In this document: in pieces, positions 4,653-40,207 of the stretch | Layout of the letters: each line of letters starts with the position of its first letter | How positions within the stretch are numbered: the stretch's first letter is position 1 | Assembly (NCBI GenBank): GCA_903892355.1 | Contig: CAITIE010000091.1 | Span: 1-64,000 of the forward strand | Source of the DNA: an uncultured Pirellula sp. | GTDB lineage: Bacteria > Planctomycetota > Planctomycetia > Pirellulales > Pirellulaceae | Direction: 5' to 3' | Length of the DNA stretch: 64,000 bases | The notes under the pieces: generated by a model | Databases searched by the model: none | The model's input: only the letters and a program-made list of their open reading frames with translations | Told to the model about the DNA's origin: nothing | Made by a program: the position numbers and the translations under genes

Positions 4653-4850
4653 TGACCCTGTAATGTGTGGGAAGTGGGGTCATATATGTAGTCATGACCC
4701 TGTAATTTGCTCCCACGTGGGGTCATATGTGACTGGCGTGACCCTGTAATGTGTCCCACGTGGGGTCATATGTGACCGGCGTGACCCTGTAATGTGTCCC
4801 ATATGACTTTTGAGACTACATGTATGACCCTAGATACATGACCCTGTATT
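4653..4850. repeat. ~43-bp iterons with TGACCC / GGGTCA inverted elements
   Basis: TGACCCTGTAAT-like units begin at 4653, 4695, 4739 and 4782, with degenerate ones at 4825 and 4839; successive spacings are 42, 44, 43, 43 and 14 bp. GGGGTCATAT in the opposite sense recurs near 4676, 4719 and 4763. The best units contain the perfect palindrome CCCACGTGGG and a GGTCA-N4-TGACC inverted repeat. The block fills the gap between the leftward nuclease operon and the rightward sigma-like gene, so it is a candidate operator array or element replication origin. The rest of the 4547-4905 gap shows nothing else. Confidence 0.8.
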
Positions 4851-5844: not shown

Positions 5845-7044
5845 ATGGCTTCTATTTCGACCGACAAATCAGGCAACAGGCGGATCCTGTACTTCGATGA
5901 GAATCGCAAACGAAGGGTGCTCTATATCGGCAAAGTTTCCGAGCGAGATGCCGAAGGAGTGCAGCGACGCGTCGAAAGCATGCTGGCTGCCAGAATCCTT
6001 GGGAACGCGATCGATCGCGACGATGCACGTTGGCTCTCGGAATCGCCAACGATCCGCGAGAAGCTCGAACGGCTCGATTTGATTCCATCTGGGAAGCTCC
6101 AAATCGATCGCAGGTGCATGTCCATGGAAGAGTTCCTAGACGACTACATCGAGCGCCATGGGGCAAGCCGCAAACCAGCCACGGTTGCGGTTTGGAAGCA
6201 GGTGGTTGCGAACCTCAAAGAGTTCATGCCCGAGGGGATCAGGATCAACCAGATCACCGCAGGCCATGCGAAAGAGTTTCACGAGAAGCTCAAAGCTCGA
6301 GGGATGGCCACGACCACGATCCACAAACGGATCCAGTTTGCGCGGCAATTCATGCACGATGCGGTCGACTGGAAGATTATCGACGAGAACCCGTTCTGCA
6401 AAGTAAAAACGCAGAAGAGTTCGGTGAAGGTCAACGAGTTCGTACCTCGCGAAGTGGTCGACAAGCTGATGAAGAAGGCCAACCCCGTCTGGCAAGTGAT
6501 CCTGGGCCTGAGTCGCTACGGTGGGCTGCGCACACCCTCGGAAACGCTATCGCTTCGTTGGGACGACATCGATTGGGAGCTGAACCGGATGAGCATCCCG
6601 GAGCCAAAGGTCGAGCACCACGAAGGTCGTGGGATTCGGAGTTGCCCGATCTTCCCGGAGCTGCGTCCGATCCTCGACGAAGCCTTCGAGATCTTCGGCG
6701 ACAAGAGCGACTATGTGGTCGCGGCTCCCCAGTACCGAGCCGCAGCCAACACTGCGATGGGTTGGAAGAATGCCAACTTACGCTCCGAAATGACACGTTT
6801 ACTGCGTCGCGCCGGCGTCTCGGGTTGGACACGATTGTTTCATTCGATGCGGGCTAGTCGTCAAACCGAGCTCCAACGCGAGTTCCCTCTACATGTGGTT
6901 TGTTCCTGGCTTGGCAACTCACCTAGGATCGCACAGCAGAGTTACTTGCTGGTGACCGAGGATGATTTTTCTAGGGCGGCAGGGGCGAAGAAGGAAGGCA
7001 GGGGCGATGCGTGCCGCCCCCCAAATGGGCGATCCCAATGGTGA
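5845..7044 (+). CDS. Tyrosine recombinase (integrase), intact copy
   Basis: A 399-residue phage-integrase-family recombinase. An N-terminal arm/SAM-like DNA-binding domain (about residues 95-180, starting SMEEFLDDYIERHG) precedes the catalytic domain. The catalytic residues are visible: Arg229 in RYGGLRTPSE, His333/Arg336 in FHSMRASRQ, Trp in SWLGNSPRIAQQ and the nucleophile Tyr367 in QQSYLLV. AGGAG precedes the ATG. The C-terminal tail after about residue 375 (KKEGRGDACRPP) differs from the partial copy at 12789-13584, which shares the catalytic region closely. It probably integrates the element at tRNA-Ser. Confidence 0.92.
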   Translation: MASISTDKSGNRRILYFDENRKRRVLYIGKVSERDAEGVQRRVESMLAARILGNAIDRDDARWLSESPTIREKLERLDLIPSGKLQIDRRCMSMEEFLDDYIERHGASRKPATVAVWKQVVANLKEFMPEGIRINQITAGHAKEFHEKLKARGMATTTIHKRIQFARQFMHDAVDWKIIDENPFCKVKTQKSSVKVNEFVPREVVDKLMKKANPVWQVILGLSRYGGLRTPSETLSLRWDDIDWELNRMSIPEPKVEHHEGRGIRSCPIFPELRPILDEAFEIFGDKSDYVVAAPQYRAAANTAMGWKNANLRSEMTRLLRRAGVSGWTRLFHSMRASRQTELQREFPLHVVCSWLGNSPRIAQQSYLLVTEDDFSRAAGAKKEGRGDACRPPNGRSQW

Positions 7045-7137
7045 TGTGCACTCCGCCCCACCAATTCAGTTGAAAAAATAGTTAGCGTTCTGATGCGTGG
7101 GTGGCACTTAATTCTCTCCTCGCAGCTCGAATCCGTT

Positions 7138-8178
7138 CTAATATTCGAAACTAAAAGATTCGCCTCCAGCTCGTGAACCTAGCGAACGCCAGACCTCAAG
7201 GTCAATTGAGTCGGAGATTGGTTCAACATGACCGTCTCCAAAGAGAGTGTTGACACAACTTGAATGGTAGCTTCTGGCCGAAAACACTCCTACAGGTACG
7301 TTGGTCGCATCACCACAGTCCGCAACATTCGCATTCGGTCCGAGCACGTGATTGTAAAACGAATAAACTGCGGAATACCATTGGCGCGCATTCGTGCGAG
7401 ACCACGTTGGGAAGTTCAAAGGGATTGTAGCACATCGGTCTGAAAGTCTATTGGGGTTTCCCATATCGACAAGAAGCTCCGTTGTCGGCAATCTCGCTAC
7501 ATCGACAAACGGCTTACCGTTTGGCACATAAGTAGAATTTGAAGAAGTCCCGATTCGTCTCTCAGAAAAAAAAGCTGTGCAAAAAAGACCGTCAACAATC
7601 TCGGCAGGACGAACAGCAACATCTTCACGAAAGGGGCCACCCAATCTCGTTTTATCCCCAAGCAACAAACCGAGCTTTTGTTCATTCTGCATGGAACCAA
7701 GGACGCCAACACTCGCAACATAGGAATGGCCAAGGGGTGCGCGAGAGTCGGTTCCTTGTATTACAATTTTGCCGTTCACGTTCGGATCAGATGGACACTT
7801 CAAGATAGCGATTGACGCAGATTCAAAGAATTCTCGATTGTTCTCTTCTAAGGGCGAAACGCTCCAATCCACTGATCTTGCGACGGTTACTTCGTCCAGT
7901 TCGGCGAGAATCCGTGTGAAAACACTATATGAACTTCCCAAACCGTCGCGTCCGATTTTTGAAGATACACCAATTGGGAACGTACGACTTACCGACTGAA
8001 AACTCTGCAATGCCGTACCAATTTGACGAATGTTTGACTGGCAATACAGTCTACGAGCTGCCTCGCGGGCGGCTTGAACGGCTGGCAAGGTCACGGACAG
8101 CAAAACACCGATAATTGCGAAGACAACTAGTAATTCGGTCAAAGTAAACGCCCGTCTTTGAGCCATGCGGATTTTCAT
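7138..8178 (-). CDS. DUF1559 prepilin-like protein of the four-gene operon
   Basis: A type IV pilin-like N-terminus (RRAFTLTELLVVFAIIGVLL) is followed by the DUF1559 body with NIRQIGTALQSFQ and the C-terminal H-X9-DG-type block SCVNTLFGDGHVEPI. Planctomycetes encode many such secreted pseudopilins of unknown function. Its first ATG (8178) overlaps the stop of the C39-DUF1573 gene. However, AAGGAG abuts that ATG directly, so initiation at the second Met (8166), 12 nt downstream of AAGGAG, is also plausible. Last gene of the operon; likely cargo of the integrative element. Confidence 0.8.
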   Translation of the reverse strand: MKIRMAQRRAFTLTELLVVFAIIGVLLSVTLPAVQAAREAARRLYCQSNIRQIGTALQSFQSVSRTFPIGVSSKIGRDGLGSSYSVFTRILAELDEVTVARSVDWSVSPLEENNREFFESASIAILKCPSDPNVNGKIVIQGTDSRAPLGHSYVASVGVLGSMQNEQKLGLLLGDKTRLGGPFREDVAVRPAEIVDGLFCTAFFSERRIGTSSNSTYVPNGKPFVDVARLPTTELLVDMGNPNRLSDRCATIPLNFPTWSRTNARQWYSAVYSFYNHVLGPNANVADCGDATNVPVGVFSARSYHSSCVNTLFGDGHVEPISDSIDLEVWRSLGSRAGGESFSFEY

Positions 8179-9893
8179 CTCCTTGAAACCGTCGCTTGAA
8201 AGTCTAGTTTCAGATCGCTCCCAGTATCTGGGGTAACGATAAGTGAGATTGTCGCGGCTTCATCATGGGGAACCTTTGAATCCGGAATGTTGGATTGGGG
8301 GGAAAGTTGCAAGACCTTACTTTCGACGATGTTCGCTGTAATCATCGATGAATTGGCTATTTCGACGCTCTTGATCGTGTATCCGGTATGCGATGATGTA
8401 AGTCGCAACAAGGAAGGAACCACGTGACCATCTTTGACCAATATCCTTGGTGTTCGCGAACCAGAAAGGCTCCATTCAGCACGTATTCTTCCACGTACAT
8501 GAATTTTAAACGACTGTTTATTTAACTCTCCCGAACAACCGTATGCGAACGGCCCTGGCTCAAATCGCTCGGTATTGAGTCGGAAGGTAACCGGAAAATT
8601 CCATTGCTGGTTCTGTAACTGGACTCCAATGAATTCGGGCTCACCTACATCCGCTGTTAGTTCGCCAATTCCGGTCAATATCGAGATCGCATCCTTTCCC
8701 AAGAACGATTCAGTAGTGGATCGCACTATGATGTTTTGAGAGACTACAGCGTCGTCACCTCTGTTGATTTCGCCAAAGTCCACATCAATGGGGCCAAGAA
8801 CTCGATATGCAGGACGGATTAGGCGAATAGACGAAGGAGTGACGATGACTTGCTTATCTTCGCCAACTGCAATTTGGATTTCCAGAGTCTCCGCCATGCC
8901 ATCCACACGACCGTAAGCGATATAGTGAGCAGAGAAGGTGCTTCCTGGTTCGACCGACTTCGAACTTAGAGATCTTAGTACAAACGTTGAGCAGCAAGGT
9001 GATCCAGATACAAAATTCTCCATCGACAAACTATTGGCACTCACGTTAGTAAGATGGGCAATGACTTCGGAATGTTCTCCTTCTGCAATCTCCTTCGGAA
9101 AATCAACTCTTTCGAGGGTGACTAATTTGGCTGACTCAAACATCGACTCTTTGCGATCAACAGCGAGAGGTCTCGTAAGTGTGTGAGTGGACTCAATGTT
9201 TGAGTCCGAAGTTTTTTGTTGACAGCCGCCAAAAAATGAACACGTGAGCAATAGCGCAAGTGGCGAAATTAAGGAACTTGCAGAGTCCATTGAACCCGAC
9301 GTACCAGTCCGAGCTAAGGCTTGCGATCCCAAAAACAATAAAGCACCAACAATCAAAACGCTCACGATGATTAAGGTCGCCCAATGATTGCCAGTAAAGT
9401 TCGAATAGTCAGAATTGTGAATGATCCATGCCCCGCTAAACGCGACGTCTCGAATATCGCGTTTTTCAACGACAATTGGCGCATGGAGCCGAGGATCGAG
9501 AACGGTCCAATTTGTTGCTGACGGAAAAACTACCGCAAAGTGCCCCGGTAATCCTTTTGTTGACAGGTGTGCGATAAAAGGCTTTTGCACGACTCCAAAA
9601 AGACTTTGCACGTCAGCTTTAATAGGTCGAACCCGGATAGATTGATCCGACACCATCTTTACAATTTCATCAATTGTATGCGACGACTTAGAAGTATTGT
9701 GCTCGGTGACGTAGTTTCGAACATTGATAGACTTGCCTGACGCAGCAACAAAAATCGCTGTTGCAGTAACGCCGCAACTCGGGTTTGTCGACAGCTTACC
9801 TATTGGCGGAATTGAATAGCCGCCATAGGACTTGCACAAACTGACGAGCGAACAAAGTGCGAAGGCAAGCAGTATTCTCATACCCCGGTTCAT
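8175..9893 (-). CDS. C39-like cysteine peptidase fused to DUF1573-type domains
   Basis: A 572-residue protein. A signal peptide (RILLAFALCSLVSLC) leads into a papain-like C39 domain with Cys in NPSCGVTATAIFVAASG, His in GLPGHFAVVF and Asp in WTVLDPR, so the catalytic triad is preserved. A TM segment follows (about residues 170-190, TLIIVSVLIVGALLFLG), then a second hydrophobic stretch with a lipobox-like LTCSFFGGC, then DUF1573/ASH-like beta domains containing SPCCSTFVL. The C39 part is predicted outside the cytoplasm, unlike peptidase-ABC exporters. Start 9893 has AAGGA 8 nt upstream and overlaps the preceding stop by 4 bp. Function inferred only. Confidence 0.6.
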   Translation of the reverse strand: MNRGMRILLAFALCSLVSLCKSYGGYSIPPIGKLSTNPSCGVTATAIFVAASGKSINVRNYVTEHNTSKSSHTIDEIVKMVSDQSIRVRPIKADVQSLFGVVQKPFIAHLSTKGLPGHFAVVFPSATNWTVLDPRLHAPIVVEKRDIRDVAFSGAWIIHNSDYSNFTGNHWATLIIVSVLIVGALLFLGSQALARTGTSGSMDSASSLISPLALLLTCSFFGGCQQKTSDSNIESTHTLTRPLAVDRKESMFESAKLVTLERVDFPKEIAEGEHSEVIAHLTNVSANSLSMENFVSGSPCCSTFVLRSLSSKSVEPGSTFSAHYIAYGRVDGMAETLEIQIAVGEDKQVIVTPSSIRLIRPAYRVLGPIDVDFGEINRGDDAVVSQNIIVRSTTESFLGKDAISILTGIGELTADVGEPEFIGVQLQNQQWNFPVTFRLNTERFEPGPFAYGCSGELNKQSFKIHVRGRIRAEWSLSGSRTPRILVKDGHVVPSLLRLTSSHTGYTIKSVEIANSSMITANIVESKVLQLSPQSNIPDSKVPHDEAATISLIVTPDTGSDLKLDFQATVSRR

Positions 9894-10894
9894 GACTTTA
9901 TCCTTGTTCTAATTGCAATTGCCAACACAACAATGCAGGTGGTTGCGAAAACCAAAGCAACGATCGAAAACTGCCAATTCGACGGTTTGGAGAAAACTCC
10001 AAAAAGCGATGGTTTGGAAATGTCAGTGCGTCTTGCATGATTCGCCATTGACTCTATAGAACTAATCGGATCGTTAGACTTGCTTACCTCGTAGTATTGT
10101 TTATTGACATGATCGTTGACTTTGGTGCCGGGCGGAAATTCAACATCCCAATCGATTCGTCCTTTGGAATCCAACGATATGTCGGAGAAATAGAGTTGGA
10201 GCTTTCCATCACCATTGGATCCGGAAGTCAGTTCGACACAACTCTTTGGAATCCAAATACCGTCCACTAGTATATTCTCGAATGTACGCTCAAAGTTGAT
10301 GGAGAAATTGGGGTTCTTCACGGACGAGTTCAGTTTCGTAATCTGTAGTCCATTCGGCGACTCCAGAAAGGTAACGAATATCGAAGGATTCCCTGGCATT
10401 TTAATTTCCAGGGTTTTGGCAGATGATTTGATAGTAATTTCCTGCGGATTTAGCACAACATTAGTGTTTTGATACCAATCGATCCACATCGGCCAATATC
10501 GAGAGGTAAACAAGTTCCCTTGCTGCGCTATCTGTCCGTGTCCTTTGGCTTTTTCATCCGCGGGTATCCAGAGTTCAGCAATATGTGAACCATGCCCAAA
10601 TGTCGACTGAGAATGCGTCCCACTCAGAAAGGGCAAGTCGAACCGAAGCCCCTGTTCGGGGTTGAATTGCCACTTACCCAAATTCGAGTCCCCTTTTGCT
10701 TCCGGTGTGAAAACAGCGTTTCCCTCCAAATTCAGCTGAACGGAACAATTGATGGACTTGCTCTCACATTTGGACAAGTAGTCAAAAGCCAATAGGTCAA
10801 ACGGATGCTGGCCTCTGTCTTGTCCGATCAATAAGGCATTCGTGGAAAAGCACATCAGAAGCCCGATGAACAAAATCGCAAATCGCAACTTCAT
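9890..10894 (-). CDS. Membrane-anchored LolA-like secreted protein
   Basis: A 334-residue protein from MKLRFAILF. It has a signal peptide (FAILFIGLLMCFSTNALLIG), a beta-rich middle resembling planctomycete LolA/outer-membrane-lipoprotein-sorting-like proteins (IDWDVEFPPGTKVND is characteristic) and one C-terminal TM helix (FSIVALVFATTCIVVLAIAI) ending in basic residues. The longer frame to 10969 adds an unlikely acidic N-terminus. Its stop overlaps the start of the C39 gene by 4 bp. The specific function is not recognised. Confidence 0.55.
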   Translation of the reverse strand: MKLRFAILFIGLLMCFSTNALLIGQDRGQHPFDLLAFDYLSKCESKSINCSVQLNLEGNAVFTPEAKGDSNLGKWQFNPEQGLRFDLPFLSGTHSQSTFGHGSHIAELWIPADEKAKGHGQIAQQGNLFTSRYWPMWIDWYQNTNVVLNPQEITIKSSAKTLEIKMPGNPSIFVTFLESPNGLQITKLNSSVKNPNFSINFERTFENILVDGIWIPKSCVELTSGSNGDGKLQLYFSDISLDSKGRIDWDVEFPPGTKVNDHVNKQYYEVSKSNDPISSIESMANHARRTDISKPSLFGVFSKPSNWQFSIVALVFATTCIVVLAIAIRTRIKS

Positions 10895-10988
10895 AGCGTT
10901 TCTCTTGTGATTGGGGAGGATGCCTTCTGTCAAATCAAGGTCGGCGGGCCAATCGGAATCTGGCTCCAATCAGAACGGCAAGACTGAT

Positions 10989-11414
10989 TCAGTACGCGTT
11001 GCAAATAGAACCACCGCATGCTGGTGTGCCTGTTGTCGGAATCGGAGTCCATTCCCAACCTCCACCTGCCAACAAAACGCACGTACCATTCAAAATATTC
11101 CCACAGCCGGTGCTTGCGAACGTAGACGAACAGTTGTTGTATCCTGGGTAGTATTGAATACCGCAATTTGGATTGTTGTTCGAACTATCGCAGGTAGACG
11201 TAGTGGGACAAGGATTTGGGTCTTGGCATGGGGCGCGATCAACACAAATCCACCATGGATATCCGCCTTCAATCCATTCGGTCTCACTTCGTTCAAGCAG
11301 TCGTACATTGCGAGATGGCGCAAACAGGCTTTCTCCGGCAACGGCCCAAAAACCACCAAGAGCGAACAGTAACATTCCCAAACCACTTGTTATCAGCCGA
11401 ATTCGATCACGCAT
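10989..11414 (-). CDS. Small secreted Cys-rich protein, first gene of the operon
   Basis: A 141-residue protein from ATG 11414 with GGAG 8 nt upstream. It has a signal peptide (RLITSGLGMLLFALGGFWAVAG), then a mature region of about 110 residues with ten Cys residues in Pro/Gly/Asn-rich spacing (ICVDRAPCQDPNPCPTTSTC near the middle), ending CGGSICNAY. An even Cys number and the lack of enzymatic motifs suggest a disulphide-stabilised secreted or surface peptide. It precedes a LolA-like gene by 94 nt and a C39 peptidase-DUF1573 fusion, so it is a candidate substrate of that peptidase. No family is recognised. Confidence 0.55.
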   Translation of the reverse strand: MRDRIRLITSGLGMLLFALGGFWAVAGESLFAPSRNVRLLERSETEWIEGGYPWWICVDRAPCQDPNPCPTTSTCDSSNNNPNCGIQYYPGYNNCSSTFASTGCGNILNGTCVLLAGGGWEWTPIPTTGTPACGGSICNAY

Positions 11415-11724
11415 GACGAAGCTCCAAGTATTTGAAAGGTAAGCGTCAAGATGGGCATTGACATCCCTAGAGCCGTTGAATGTAAGGATCTGAAATCTGC
11501 AAGTCAAGTTTTTCAACGGGAATTTTTCCTCAAACAGGCAGTTGCAAAACGGACACGCAAATGCGTTCCACCCACGAATCGTTTCTCGACCGAACAAATG
11601 CGGGGATAGGCAGATGGCAACCAACGCCAATCGGGTCAGGACATTGACTTCCGAAGAGCCTACGAGCGTGTGATTGGCTTTCTTGGGATCCTCGTCTCAC
11701 CGTGGCCGCACTTCAAAACATCAC

Positions 11725-11969
11725 GTCCCTAGTTCGAATCCTGCACCTCCACTACAAAACCACATGTTTTCCCTGGAAAAACGAGGGTTCGGGGACGACT
11801 CTGGCGACTCACTCGACGACTCACCAGGGTCCAAGGCAGCGCACAAGACGACGCAGCACCTGCAGGCATGGACATGCATGGATAGGCAGGAAAGCCAAAG
11901 CAATTGGCCGAATATGCGAAAAACCCTGGGAAAACCAGGGTTTTTGAGCGGAGAGGACAGGAACCGAAC
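11725..11969. repeat. Left copy of att-adjacent repeat plus tRNA-Ser 3'-end fragment
   Basis: The sequence 11730-11946 matches 15000-15220: AGTTCGAATCCT + ACCTC, TTTTCCCTGG..AAAACGAGGGTT, GACGACTCAC, GGCAGCGCAC, GCAGCACCTGCA, then the hairpin AAAAACCCTGG-GAAAA-CCAGGGTTTTT. It is followed at 11950-11969 by GGAGAGGACAGGAACCGAAC, which matches the 3' end of tRNA-Ser (15293-15312) at 18 of 20 positions. This fits an attachment-site remnant at the right end of element A. The remaining gene-free sequence from 11415 to 12134 shows no convincing ORF. Confidence 0.7.
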
Positions 11970-12134
11970 ATTTCGCTGTTTTCCCAATGGTTTTGAGGGA
12001 GTTCGAGAGGTGCCTAAAACGAAGATCCCGACTCCTGCATGGTCGTGATTAGGCCGGAATTGACGAATGCAACTTGACTCAGAAATGAACCAATGAGACT
12101 ATTGAGTGTGAGTCTTACTAAAGCCTGAGAACGA

Positions 12135-12374
12135 ATGGACGAAGTAGTCATGGTCACATCAATTGAACTGTCAGAACAGGAATTAGCCGAGCTACGTGAT
12201 CTGACTGAACAGAGTGATTCAATGGAAGCTATCCGAGTGGCGATGCGCGATTACATTCGCTACGCCCGTCGAATGCGACTCAAGCAACTTTCTGGTCAAG
12301 TCGAAATGATCGATAATTGGCGTCAATTAGAAGAATCCGAGGTTGGCGATCTCAATGACGATTCCTCCAAGTGA
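12135..12374 (+). CDS. vapB: VapB-like antitoxin
   Basis: A 79-residue ribbon-helix-helix-type antitoxin: a short beta strand (VTSIELSEQELAEL), then helices including MEAIRVAMRDYIRYARR, and an acidic C-terminal tail that would wrap the toxin. ATG 12150 is an alternative start. It overlaps the PIN toxin gene by 20 bp, the standard antitoxin-first arrangement. The pair sits at the left end of the decayed second element, where it may have stabilised the element. Confidence 0.8.
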   Translation: MDEVVMVTSIELSEQELAELRDLTEQSDSMEAIRVAMRDYIRYARRMRLKQLSGQVEMIDNWRQLEESEVGDLNDDSSK

Positions 12375-12759
12375 TCTAGTTCTGATCGACACTTGTATCT
12401 GGGTAGGTTTCTTCAACCGAAATCAGTCCGCCGAACGGATTACTGTCGATCCTTTGCTTGATGACGATCGTGCTGCAATCACAGGAATGATCTTGGCCGA
12501 AATCTTGCAAGGTTTTCGTCGCGATGAGCAGGCCGATTGGGTTGCGTCTTCACTGAAGGGCCTACATGACCTTGAACCTATTTGGGATGACTGGCGAGTA
12601 GCCGCCAAACTGGGACGACATCTTGTTGCCAATGGACACCGGTTACCACTGACCGACCTTGCAATCGCAGCTATCGCACTTAGAAACGACTGTTCAGTCC
12701 TCACAACCGATCCGCACTTCGATCTTATTGCGGGGTTGAAACGCTTTCCACTTAAATAA
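12355..12759 (+). CDS. vapC: VapC-like PIN-domain RNase toxin
   Basis: A 134-residue PIN domain with the acidic metal site intact: Asp in LVLIDTCIWVGFF, Glu in GMILAEILQGF, Asp in LPLTDLAIAAIAL and Asp in VLTTDPHFDLIAGL. VapC family members are site-specific RNases, often acting on tRNA or rRNA. ATG 12355 is chosen because the domain begins directly after it and it overlaps vapB, allowing coupled translation. It looks functional. Confidence 0.88.
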   Translation: MTIPPSDLVLIDTCIWVGFFNRNQSAERITVDPLLDDDRAAITGMILAEILQGFRRDEQADWVASSLKGLHDLEPIWDDWRVAAKLGRHLVANGHRLPLTDLAIAAIALRNDCSVLTTDPHFDLIAGLKRFPLK

Positions 12760-12788
12760 TGATGTAGCTTCAAGCAGTTGTGCCCGAG

Positions 12789-13584
12789 GAATGGCTACGA
12801 CGACGATCCACAAACGGATCCAATTCGCGAGGCAATTCATGCACGACGCGGTCGATTGGAAGATCATCGACGAGAACCCATTCCTTAAGGTAAAGACCCA
12901 AAAGAGCTCGGTGAAGGTCAACGAGTTTGTCCCGCGCGAAGTGGTCGACAAACTAATGAAGAAAGCCAACCCAGTTTGGCAAGTGATCCTGGGGCTGAGT
13001 CGCTACGGTTGGCTTCGCACGCCCTCGGAAACGTTATCGCTACGATGGGAGGACATCGATTGGGAAATGAATCGGATGAGCATCCCGGAGCCAAAGGTCG
13101 AGCATCACGAAGGCCGTGGCATTCGTAGCTGCCCAATCTTTCCCGAGCTGCGACCGATCCTCGACGAAGCGTTCGAGATCTTCGGTGACAAGAGCGAGTA
13201 TGTGGTCGCGGCTCCACAGTACCGTGCGGCAGCCAACACAGCGATGGGCTGGCTCAGTCGTTCTCGTGCTCAATGAAATGGTGCTCGTGCTCGTAATCGA
13301 CGCGGTTGGTTCGAGCAGGAGTACGAGCAGGAGTTCGAGCAGGAGTACGAGCAGGAGTACGAGCAGGAGTACGAGCAGGAGTACGAGCAGGAGTACGAGC
13401 AGGAGCAGGAGCACGAGCACGAAAATCCCAGTCAATATGCGAAACAGAACTCCAGCGTGAGTTCCCACTGCACGTGGTTTGCTCCTGGCTCGGCAACTCA
13501 CCACGCATTGCACAGCAGAGTTATCTGCTGGTCATCGAGGATGATTTCGCCAAGGCGGCCGGCGTGGCGAAGGTGATGGTGTAG
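12789..13584 (+). pseudogene. Truncated, interrupted tyrosine integrase copy
   Basis: From GGAATGGCTACG onward this sequence closely parallels 6300-6770 of the intact integrase (MATTTIHKRIQFARQF..., SRYGWLRTPSE). Roughly the first 150 residues are missing. After AANTAMGW (about 13252) homology stops and a GAGCAGGAGTAC repeat intervenes. Homology resumes at TELQREFPLHVV and runs to QQSYLLVIEDDF before stopping at 13584. About 33 residues including the HxxR catalytic motif are absent, and the repeat breaks the frame, so it cannot be active. It is a remnant of a second, related element. Confidence 0.9.
13313..13421. repeat. GAGCAGGAGTAC 12-bp microsatellite within integrase pseudogene
   Basis: About nine 12-bp units of GAGCAGGAGTAC (one reads GAGTTC) run from 13313 and end in GAGCAGGAGCACGAGCACGA. 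The left flank holds opposite-sense TCGTGCTC copies (13263-13293), so the whole insert can fold back. It replaces the catalytic HxxR segment of the integrase copy. A related GAG(T/C)AC array is at 40107-40177. Confidence 0.9.
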
Positions 13585-15000: not shown

Positions 15001-15220
15001 AGTTCGAATCCTACCACCTCTGCTGCAAAACCACCTGTTTTCCCTGGGAAAACGAGGGTTTCGAGGCGACTCTGACGACTCACTGGACGACTCACTAGGG
15101 GGCAAGGCAGCGCACTAGGGTTGTTGATTTATCGGGGGCAGCACCTGCAAGCATGCACGTGCATGAAAGCCAAATCAATTGACCAGAAATGCGAAAACCC
15201 CTGGGAAAACCAGGGTTTTG
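15001..15220. repeat. Right copy of att-adjacent repeat
   Basis: Diverged copy of 11730-11946 with the same block order. It starts AGTTCGAATCCTACCACCTC, which resembles the T-arm and acceptor 3' part of a tRNA or tmRNA. It ends with the perfect hairpin AAAACCCCTGG-GAAAA-CCAGGGTTTT. A ~24-bp insertion (around 15115-15138) is unique to this copy. It sits just left of tRNA-Ser. The rest of 14822-15292 has no gene. Confidence 0.75.
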
Positions 15221-15234
15221 CAGCAAGGGCTTCA

Positions 15235-15298
15235 GAAAGCTAACGGATGAGAAAGCTAACGGATGAGAAAACTAACGGATGAGAAAACTAACGGAGAG
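15235..15298. repeat. 16-bp tandem repeat abutting tRNA-Ser
   Basis: Four 16-bp units (GAAAGCTAACGGATGA, with A for G in later units) occupy 15235-15250, 15251-15266, 15267-15282 and 15283-15298. The last unit runs into the tRNA 3' end, so the array lies exactly at the presumed integration site. Confidence 0.85.
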
Positions 15299-15380
15299 GA
15301 CAGGATTCGAACCTGCGGTAAGGAGTTAACCCTACGCCGAATTAGCAATCCGGTGCTTTAGACCACTCAGCCACCTCTCC
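15293..15380 (-). tRNA. tRNA-Ser(GCT)
   Basis: An 88-nt class II tRNA on the minus strand. The acceptor stem GGAGAGG pairs with CCTCTCC, the anticodon loop has GCT (in GGATTGCTAATTCG), there is a long variable arm, and the T-loop is GTTCGAATCC. The 3' CCA is not encoded. Its 3' end is duplicated at 11950-11969, suggesting use as an integration site. Confidence 0.95.
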
Positions 15381-39572: not shown

Positions 39573-39635
39573 CCGATCGATTCGTACTCAGTCCGCCCTT
39601 AGGACGATACGTATACTCGATGCTCCTCGAAGGAC

Positions 39636-40063
39636 TCGAGGATGCGATGCACTTCCAGCACGATCGCCTTCACCTTCCACTGGGTTTATCCCAGTGGGGG
39701 TAACAACTGACAGCTACCACTCGTCCTTTGCCCCAGTTCCTCGACTTCCTCGTTGGGGCAAAGCCACAACGCATAATGTGGGGATGCGTTGGTAGCCGCC
39801 AGTGCGTCCACCGGCATAAGGCCGGTGGTGGCCAAACATTGCGATGATCGAGGATGCGATGCACTTCCAGCACGATCGCCTTCACCTTCCACTGGGTTTA
39901 TCCCAGTGGAGGTAACAACTGACAGCTACCACTCGTCCTTCGCCCCAGTTCCTCGACTTCCTCGTTGGGGCAAAGCCACAACGCACAATGTGGGGATGCG
40001 TTGGTAGCCGCCAGTCAGGGCGTCCACCGGCACAAGGCCGGGGGTGGCCAAACATTGCGATCA
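39636..40063. repeat. Two tandem copies of a ~214-bp structured repeat
   Basis: TCGAGGATGCGATGCACTTC starts at 39636 and again at 39848 (offset 212); a third partial start (TCGAGGATGCGA) is at 40064 (offset 216). The copies are nearly identical, differing by about a dozen substitutions and a 4-bp indel near 40016. Each copy carries three hairpins: CACTGGGTTTATCCCAGTG, CCCCAGTTCC...TTGGGGC, and CCACCGGCATAAGGCCGGTGG. Short frames inside (containing MPVDALAATN) are not credible genes. This fills the gap 39573-40207 together with the microsatellite that follows. Confidence 0.92.
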
Positions 40064-40106
40064 TCGAGGATGCGAGAAAGCAAGAACAACCAGCAAAACA
40101 GCCGTC

Positions 40107-40177
40107 GAGTACGAGTACCGCTGCGCTGAGTACGAGTACGAGCACGAGCACGAGCACGAGTACGAGCACGAGCACGA
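40107..40177. repeat. GAGTAC/GAGCAC hexamer microsatellite
   Basis: GAGTACGAGTACCGCTGCGCTGAGTACGAG is followed by alternating GAGCAC/GAGTAC hexamers to 40177. It directly follows the third partial copy of the 214-bp repeat and resembles the 12-bp array at 13313-13421. Confidence 0.9.
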
Positions 40178-40207
40178 ACTAAAACCAATAGCCGCGATGC
40201 GTTTGCA

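Follow-up and report, generated by a model that had tools for sequence, protein, structure and literature searches.

Integrase genes and fragments at the locus

The window (the whole 64-kb stretch of DNA analysed here) comes from a draft assembly with 158 contigs and a total of 6.18 Mb. It carries an intact integrase gene at 5845-7044 on the plus strand, which encodes a phage-type tyrosine recombinase with Phage_integrase and Phage_int_SAM_5 domains (integrase in PHROG). The stretch around it has phage-like recombination genes, for a helicase, a single-strand binding protein, an exonuclease VIII-like protein and a RusA-like protein. A 43-bp unit is repeated 3.5 times near these genes, at 4653-4801.

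A second integrase sequence, at 12782-13572 on the plus strand, is a gene remnant. Its first 150 residues are missing. What is left is a 5'-truncated fragment (12782-13252), which corresponds to residues 151-307 of the intact paralog (96.8% at the amino acid level), and a C-terminal fragment (13442-13572), which runs to residue 383. As the first-pass annotation had noticed, homology to the intact gene breaks off between the two; at the DNA level it ends at 13252 and restarts at 13442. In intact paralogs the stretch from one junction to the other is exactly 97 bp long (6766-6862 in the window) and contains HSMR; in the remnant it is 189 bp long (13253-13441). The HxxR segment has thus been replaced, as was originally described.

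Many copies of this integrase family lack the 5' part, stop near residue 383 and share one orientation, several kb apart (contigs C126, C131, C137, and C157 of the same genome, G000; L339 = G364:C13; and 5845-13572 in the window), which looks like a stacking of prophages or islands at a single site. Directly upstream of the remnant is a gene for a PIN-domain (VapC-like) protein (12343-12759). Two stretches of about 250 bp in the window (15001-15247 and 11695-11970) are similar to sequence near other inserted integrase copies. One of them ends beside a tRNA gene (15292-15380), and a 16-bp unit repeated 3.9 times at 15234-15295 marks a possible attachment site. Two tRNAs are the only Rfam matches in the window. 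Several integrase copies across species (L336, L339, L340, and L100 = C126:1625-1780) share about 13-16 extra bases right at HSMR, CTGTAA-GCTTCAAGAGGGGCGAG, a change that by eye keeps the frame in some of them. In other integrase copies, stretches have been swapped for different fold-back repeats, of the AATTGAGAATGG type, the GTAG-type palindrome and the AACCACAGAACACAC type (2375-2531 of L102 = G000:C157; L053 = G105:C39; L325-L327; L336).

Structure of the insert

Three parts can be told apart in the insert. The first is a repeat core at 13259-13299 on the minus strand, in which GAGCAC hexamers stand around a stem-loop (CTCAATGAAATGG at 13269-13281, plus strand); it scores 63.3 bits (E 9.9e-17 in the window) with R1, a model of the core of the repeat. 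The second is a GAGCAGGAGTAC array at 13312-13422 on the plus strand, with 9.2 units of 12 bp, i.e., two hexamers, and 93% matches. This arm changes its length between copies in multiples of 6 bp. The third is the filler TCCCAGTCAATATGCG (13426-13441, plus strand), which recurs with small changes in the other insert copies that have this side. A resemblance of the filler to the lost integrase stretch is suggestive by eye, and as a diverged remnant of that stretch it aligns no better than shuffled sequences (1196 and 1127 of 2000 as good). Also by eye, a 5-bp CAGTC, which may be a target-site duplication, is seen near both ends of the insert; for comparison there is no clean empty site other than the integrase site among the collected loci, as judged by us from an all-against-all comparison.

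The window has a second copy of the repeat, with a core at 40100-40140 followed by a hexamer run (40100-40176 altogether, plus strand; R1 55.3 bits). The locus of this copy (39583-40186) encloses a 212-bp unit that is present twice (39636-40075) and has palindromes of its own.

Folded as single-stranded DNA, the insert in the window is modest (z -1.6; 15 of 200 shuffles fold equally well), and so is a short-array insert from contig C126 (z -2.0; 8 of 200). A complete 104-bp doublet from the genus (L360) folds far better than the window insert (z -7.7, matched by none of 200 shuffles). Compared with this doublet, the window insert has kept one stem-loop and is missing the other. Terminal inverted repeats with no gene between them, as in MITEs, are present in the 104-bp relative (TTTTTCGTGCTC...GAGCACGAAAA) and only in part in the window insert. 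The fold-back flanks reported at first pass therefore exist, although the fold that they give in this copy is modest.

The same insertion in other contigs and genomes

A search with the C126 copy and its junctions finds the same junctions and filler at no fewer than eight places in at least four of the 27 genus genomes, which comprise one genome per species, many of them drafts. Contig C126, from the same genome as the window, has the same junctions around a 93-bp insert. The two inserts differ in length by exactly 96 bp (16 hexamers) and at 3 of the 93 bases that they share. Integrase sequence flanks the insert on both sides in G358:C669, G360:C366, and G351:C173. The left junction is found in G358:C241 and the right one in G358:C290 and in G351:C95, where the left flank is not integrase beyond GGGTTGG. 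To the left of the insert, G351:C95 resembles by eye the end of a PIN-domain (VapC-like) gene. Right flanks are truncated in G351:C95 and G360:C366.

Block A, the part with the stem-loop (61-62 bp), and block B, the end with the filler (21-22 bp), are nearly identical wherever present. The insertion is thus real and inherited. An assembly artefact, the doubt raised at first pass, is excluded for the insertion by identical junctions on a second contig and in further genomes; the exact length of the array in the window copy depends on a single assembly. The earlier description of a clean record of one local event does not survive this recurrence.

The shared junctions and filler suggest a single origin, in which one copy of the repeat would have entered an integrase gene of this genus in the region that encodes HxxR, and 97 bp would have been lost. 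Insertion and loss may have been one step or separate steps; no intermediate between the two is found among the inserted copies. It is possible that the repeat copy entered through capture by repair.

Probable spread among integrase paralogs

The window and C126 form the clean pair for comparing flanks; mean flank values over all inserted copies come out too low, as they take in the non-integrase left flank of G351:C95 and the shortened right flanks of G351:C95 and G360:C366. Outside the array, the inserts of the pair differ at 3 of 93 positions and the flanks at 36 of 241 (p 0.002); third codon positions account for 30 of these flank differences. Such a bias is the mark of genes under selection; therefore, in one copy or both, the flanks had for the most part diverged before the insert was there. 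From these figures, either the insert or the flanks would have been exchanged between paralogs. As many integrase pieces exist per genome (20 matches in the host), exchange between paralogs is the plainest reading. Thus the gene piece with its insert would have spread through integrase copies by duplication and homologous exchange, so that flanks changed and the insert was kept. In one case co-inheritance is plain, since G358:C669 and G360:C366 are 95.4% alike over 587 bp spanning the insert.

On average, the left flanks of inserted copies are about equally close to intact copies and to one another. A tree with all inserted copies in one clade is rejected by the right flank (p 0.029) and not by the left (p 0.23); in the right-flank test rows shorter than 90 bp were dropped, and G360:C366 and G351:C95 are too short for the right-hand set or absent from it.

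Part of the evidence would also suit a site-specific, homing-like insertion, in which the element with its filler entered the same integrase position independently in several paralogs and replaced the same 97 bp each time. This would explain an insert so much more alike than its flanks, and inserted copies lie dispersed in the left and the right flank tree (5 changes each, for 6 and for 5 inserted rows). Differences between the flanks of the window and C126 start 4 bp to the left and 5 bp to the right of the insert. An exchanged tract would thus reach at most 3 bp to the left and 4 bp to the right, which is short for gene conversion and counts against exchange. The insert behind a left flank other than integrase in G351:C95 points the same way. 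Homing, however, requires an identical 97-bp loss and an identical filler every time, no enzyme is known for it, and the pair of G358 and G360 is plainly co-inherited. We regard independent entry as unlikely and keep to exchange between paralogs.

Length changes and probable growth of the hexamer array

The hexamer stretch between blocks A and B can be measured in seven copies (G358:C241 is not measurable and was left out). It is 106 bp in the window and 10, 22, 28, 28, 28, and 22 bp in the others, all of which are 4 modulo 6. Since the six other copies hold 10-28 bp between the same blocks, the simplest reading of the long GAGCAGGAGTAC array is that it expanded late, in the window copy. This copy keeps the stem-loop of one arm; the other arm, a run of hexamers, changes between copies in 6-bp steps and would have grown here to 106 bp.

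Changes in the number of hexamers with flanks kept are also found elsewhere in the repeat family, between elements in corresponding positions in different species (L204/L309 and L215/L278) and between repeated copies within L116 and within L117. Replication slippage or unequal exchange would most simply account for length changes by whole 6-bp units. Note that on contigs C99 and C100 of the host genome near-identical elements close to a contig end have different arrays; arrays may therefore be misassembled.

These lengths do not support the original view of the replacement as a microsatellite-type insertion with the array as the inserted entity; the six shorter copies have block A, block B or both with 10-28 bp of hexamers. 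More generally, the array could have been placed in the gene in one event, as a bare microsatellite or through the repair of a break with filler DNA. Filler bases and target loss do resemble end joining, and in sibling copies integrase sequence has given way to other fold-back repeats (C157:2375-2531; G105:C39). The copies with short arrays, however, have a whole stem-loop unit and little array, and the unit belongs to a dispersed, structured family. Such an origin is very improbable.

A dispersed family of hairpin repeats

Further GAGYAC arrays, which the first-pass annotation proposed to look for, exist in the host genome. As read from the copies, the complete form of the repeat is about 100 bp long and has two units in inverted orientation. 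In each unit GAGYAC (GTRCTC) hexamers enclose a short stem-loop, and a short loop joins the units; one strand is predicted to fold into a long hairpin. In the seed alignment the order is GAGYAC-C-stem-loop-T-GAGYAC, with the hexamer on either side of the stem-loop. The unpaired GTAG or CGTC tag found at one palindrome end in the REP superfamilies is absent from this alignment.

The stem is maintained in evolution. In 32 seeds chosen by their hexamers and not by their stem, 97.8% of cells are paired, against 81.9% in shuffles and at most 35.6% in slid controls. Cells with a double change number 21 (6.7 in shuffles), i.e., compensatory changes keep the stem. Of the five covariation measures, two do not rise above the shuffled level, namely pairs with a double change (2 vs 1.9) and pair types (4 vs 4.0). 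A stem of at least 2 bp is present in 45 of 48 cores from the same genome (9.7 in shuffles) and in 22 of 23 cores from other genomes of the family (3.7 in shuffles). GNA triloops form very stable DNA mini-hairpins. On the GTRCTC strand, GNA makes up 24 of the 25 short loops of the host genome and 11 of the 20 loops in loci from other genomes of the family; loci from named genomes (152 of 179 GNA) are excluded from this count, having been found with a pattern that favours GNA loops.

Model R1 has 96 matches in the host genome at E≤0.1 and at least 64 at E≤1e-6, part of which are hexamer runs with no stem-loop (examples are found in the window). After merging, 61 strong matches remain. The nearest neighbour within 450 bp is on the opposite strand for 29 of them and on the same strand for 3. 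Another 29 have none, so that half of the merged matches are not doublets by the neighbour test. Complete doublets with inverted units were recognised by direct reading of the copies.

At E≤1e-6, R1 matches occur in at least 21 of 60 family genomes. Across the phylum at the same threshold there are at least 12 genomes with matches besides the host among 199, with at most 41.6 bits over 32-38 bases, which is shorter than the complete core. Going by score and length, the matches outside the family are taken for probable hexamer runs. Both counts are lower bounds, as the best candidates per genome were scored; the host genome itself gives 64 vs 31 matches at E≤1e-6 in these two surveys. In a pattern scan of named genomes, the matches listed include Rhodopirellula solitaria, R. 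maiorica, Neorhodopirellula pilleata, Candidatus Laterigemmans baculatus, Pirellula and Fuerstiella MAGs and others, together with a few labelled Kuenenia or Deltaproteobacteria. Going by the named carriers, the family that carries the repeat is probably Pirellulaceae.

Candidate movers

REP and REPIN repeats are considered to be dependent on RAYT transposases, and an associated transposase, such as a RAYT, was suggested at first pass. No movement of the GAGYAC repeat was observed. The only Y1_Tnp gene of the host genome (L029 = G000:C90:45494-45709) is among GTAG-type palindromes, ACGACGGCGGAGCGTCGT, and not GAGYAC units. Y1_Tnp genes are found in 45 of the 60 family genomes. The core is absent at E≤0.01 from all 31 Y1_Tnp loci tested, i.e., L029 and 30 of more than 150 Y1_Tnp matches (best E 0.16). 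The repeat is carried by 5 of 15 genomes lacking Y1_Tnp and by 16 of 45 having it (p 1.0), and G038, which is 99% complete, has 66 matches to the element and no Y1_Tnp. The evidence speaks against the usual RAYT (TnpA-REP) as the mover of the GAGYAC repeat. That the insert is an ordinary REP doublet moved by a Y1 transposase would suit its small size, inverted hairpin doublets and stem covariation and the frequency of Y1_Tnp in the family, but is scarcely credible given the loci and genomes just described, the other palindromes around the sole Y1_Tnp gene of the host and hairpins bordered by GAGYAC rather than by GTAG or CGTC.

Some copies of the repeat adjoin other sequences of note. The motif CCAGAA, which we take to be a mark of attC, is found within 80 bp of 30 of 277 copies, compared with 4 of 277 at 500 bp further, and within 130 bp of 43 of 329 copies (10.4 expected). 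AACTTCAA lies beside 18 of 329 copies (2.0 expected) and GTGGGYAA beside 8 of 329 (1.7 expected). Integron attC sites act as folded single strands. The likeness of the repeat to them is its predicted folding as a single strand and the adjoining CCAGAA of some copies; they differ in that no attC core boxes were noticed in the GAGYAC element. An integron integrase as the mover shows a weak, non-significant excess in the carriers, of which 13 of 21 have a match above the curated cut-off, against 17 of 39 other genomes (p 0.28). One might speculate, with little confidence, that the family moves without RAYT by means of a putative recombinase of single-stranded DNA whose targets would be small stem-loops flanked by unstable hexamer arms. 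Such an enzyme would settle the repeat in or beside other fold-back DNA, such as attC-like sites and AACTTCAA palindromes, and would home it repeatedly to one integrase site.

Origin of the block and its relation to known repeats

Taken together, the block in the integrase remnant is likely to be a copy of a REPIN-like, protein-free planctomycete repeat that came to lie in the HxxR region of an integrase gene and spread by duplication and exchange between paralogs, its array having grown later in the window. A family of hairpin doublets that is equally common with and without a Y1 transposase calls for another mover, and this question can be tested. At the integrase site, one insertion kept in several copies and species with hexamer stretches of 10 to 106 bp also makes a natural series in which to follow how a bacterial microsatellite grows, and it illustrates how exchange between paralogs may carry an insertion through a gene family.

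No description of the GAGYAC planctomycete repeat was found in the open-access PMC texts searched. Rhodopirellula baltica is among the genomes with satellites in the excerpted part of PMC6749651. Planctomycete REPs or class 3 Y1 proteins with the tags GTAG, CGTC, and CnGA are described in PMC3733652 and PMC6006769, to judge from portions of these papers. Like the GAGYAC element, these are palindromic repeats, known from the same phylum or superphylum. The palindrome of the GTAG type next to L029 fits these descriptions; the GAGYAC element, judged by the tags, does not.

REPINs, or REP doublets, are inverted pairs of short stem-loops with a spacer that fold as single strands, show compensatory changes, exist in many copies and have no gene inside (PMC3116915, also PMC8266576, in extract), and the GAGYAC repeat, in its complete copies, shares these features. 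In contrast to the doublets in the same extract of PMC3116915, it has no GTAG or CGTC tag, has expanding hexamer arms and is accompanied by no RAYT in the tested loci, and about half of its strong matches have no close partner. BrickBuilt, a MITE of Porphyromonas gingivalis, is another small inverted-repeat element with a tandem repeat of variable content (PMC4596501, as partly available). Its units are 23 nt long rather than hexamers, going by its description. In the same part of that paper BrickBuilt is reported to be always intergenic, whereas the GAGYAC copy in the window lies within a gene remnant. Although it lacks the tags and, in the loci tested, the RAYT of REPINs, the GAGYAC repeat is REPIN-like in build, and the kinds closest to it are REPINs and the minisatellite-bearing MITE BrickBuilt.
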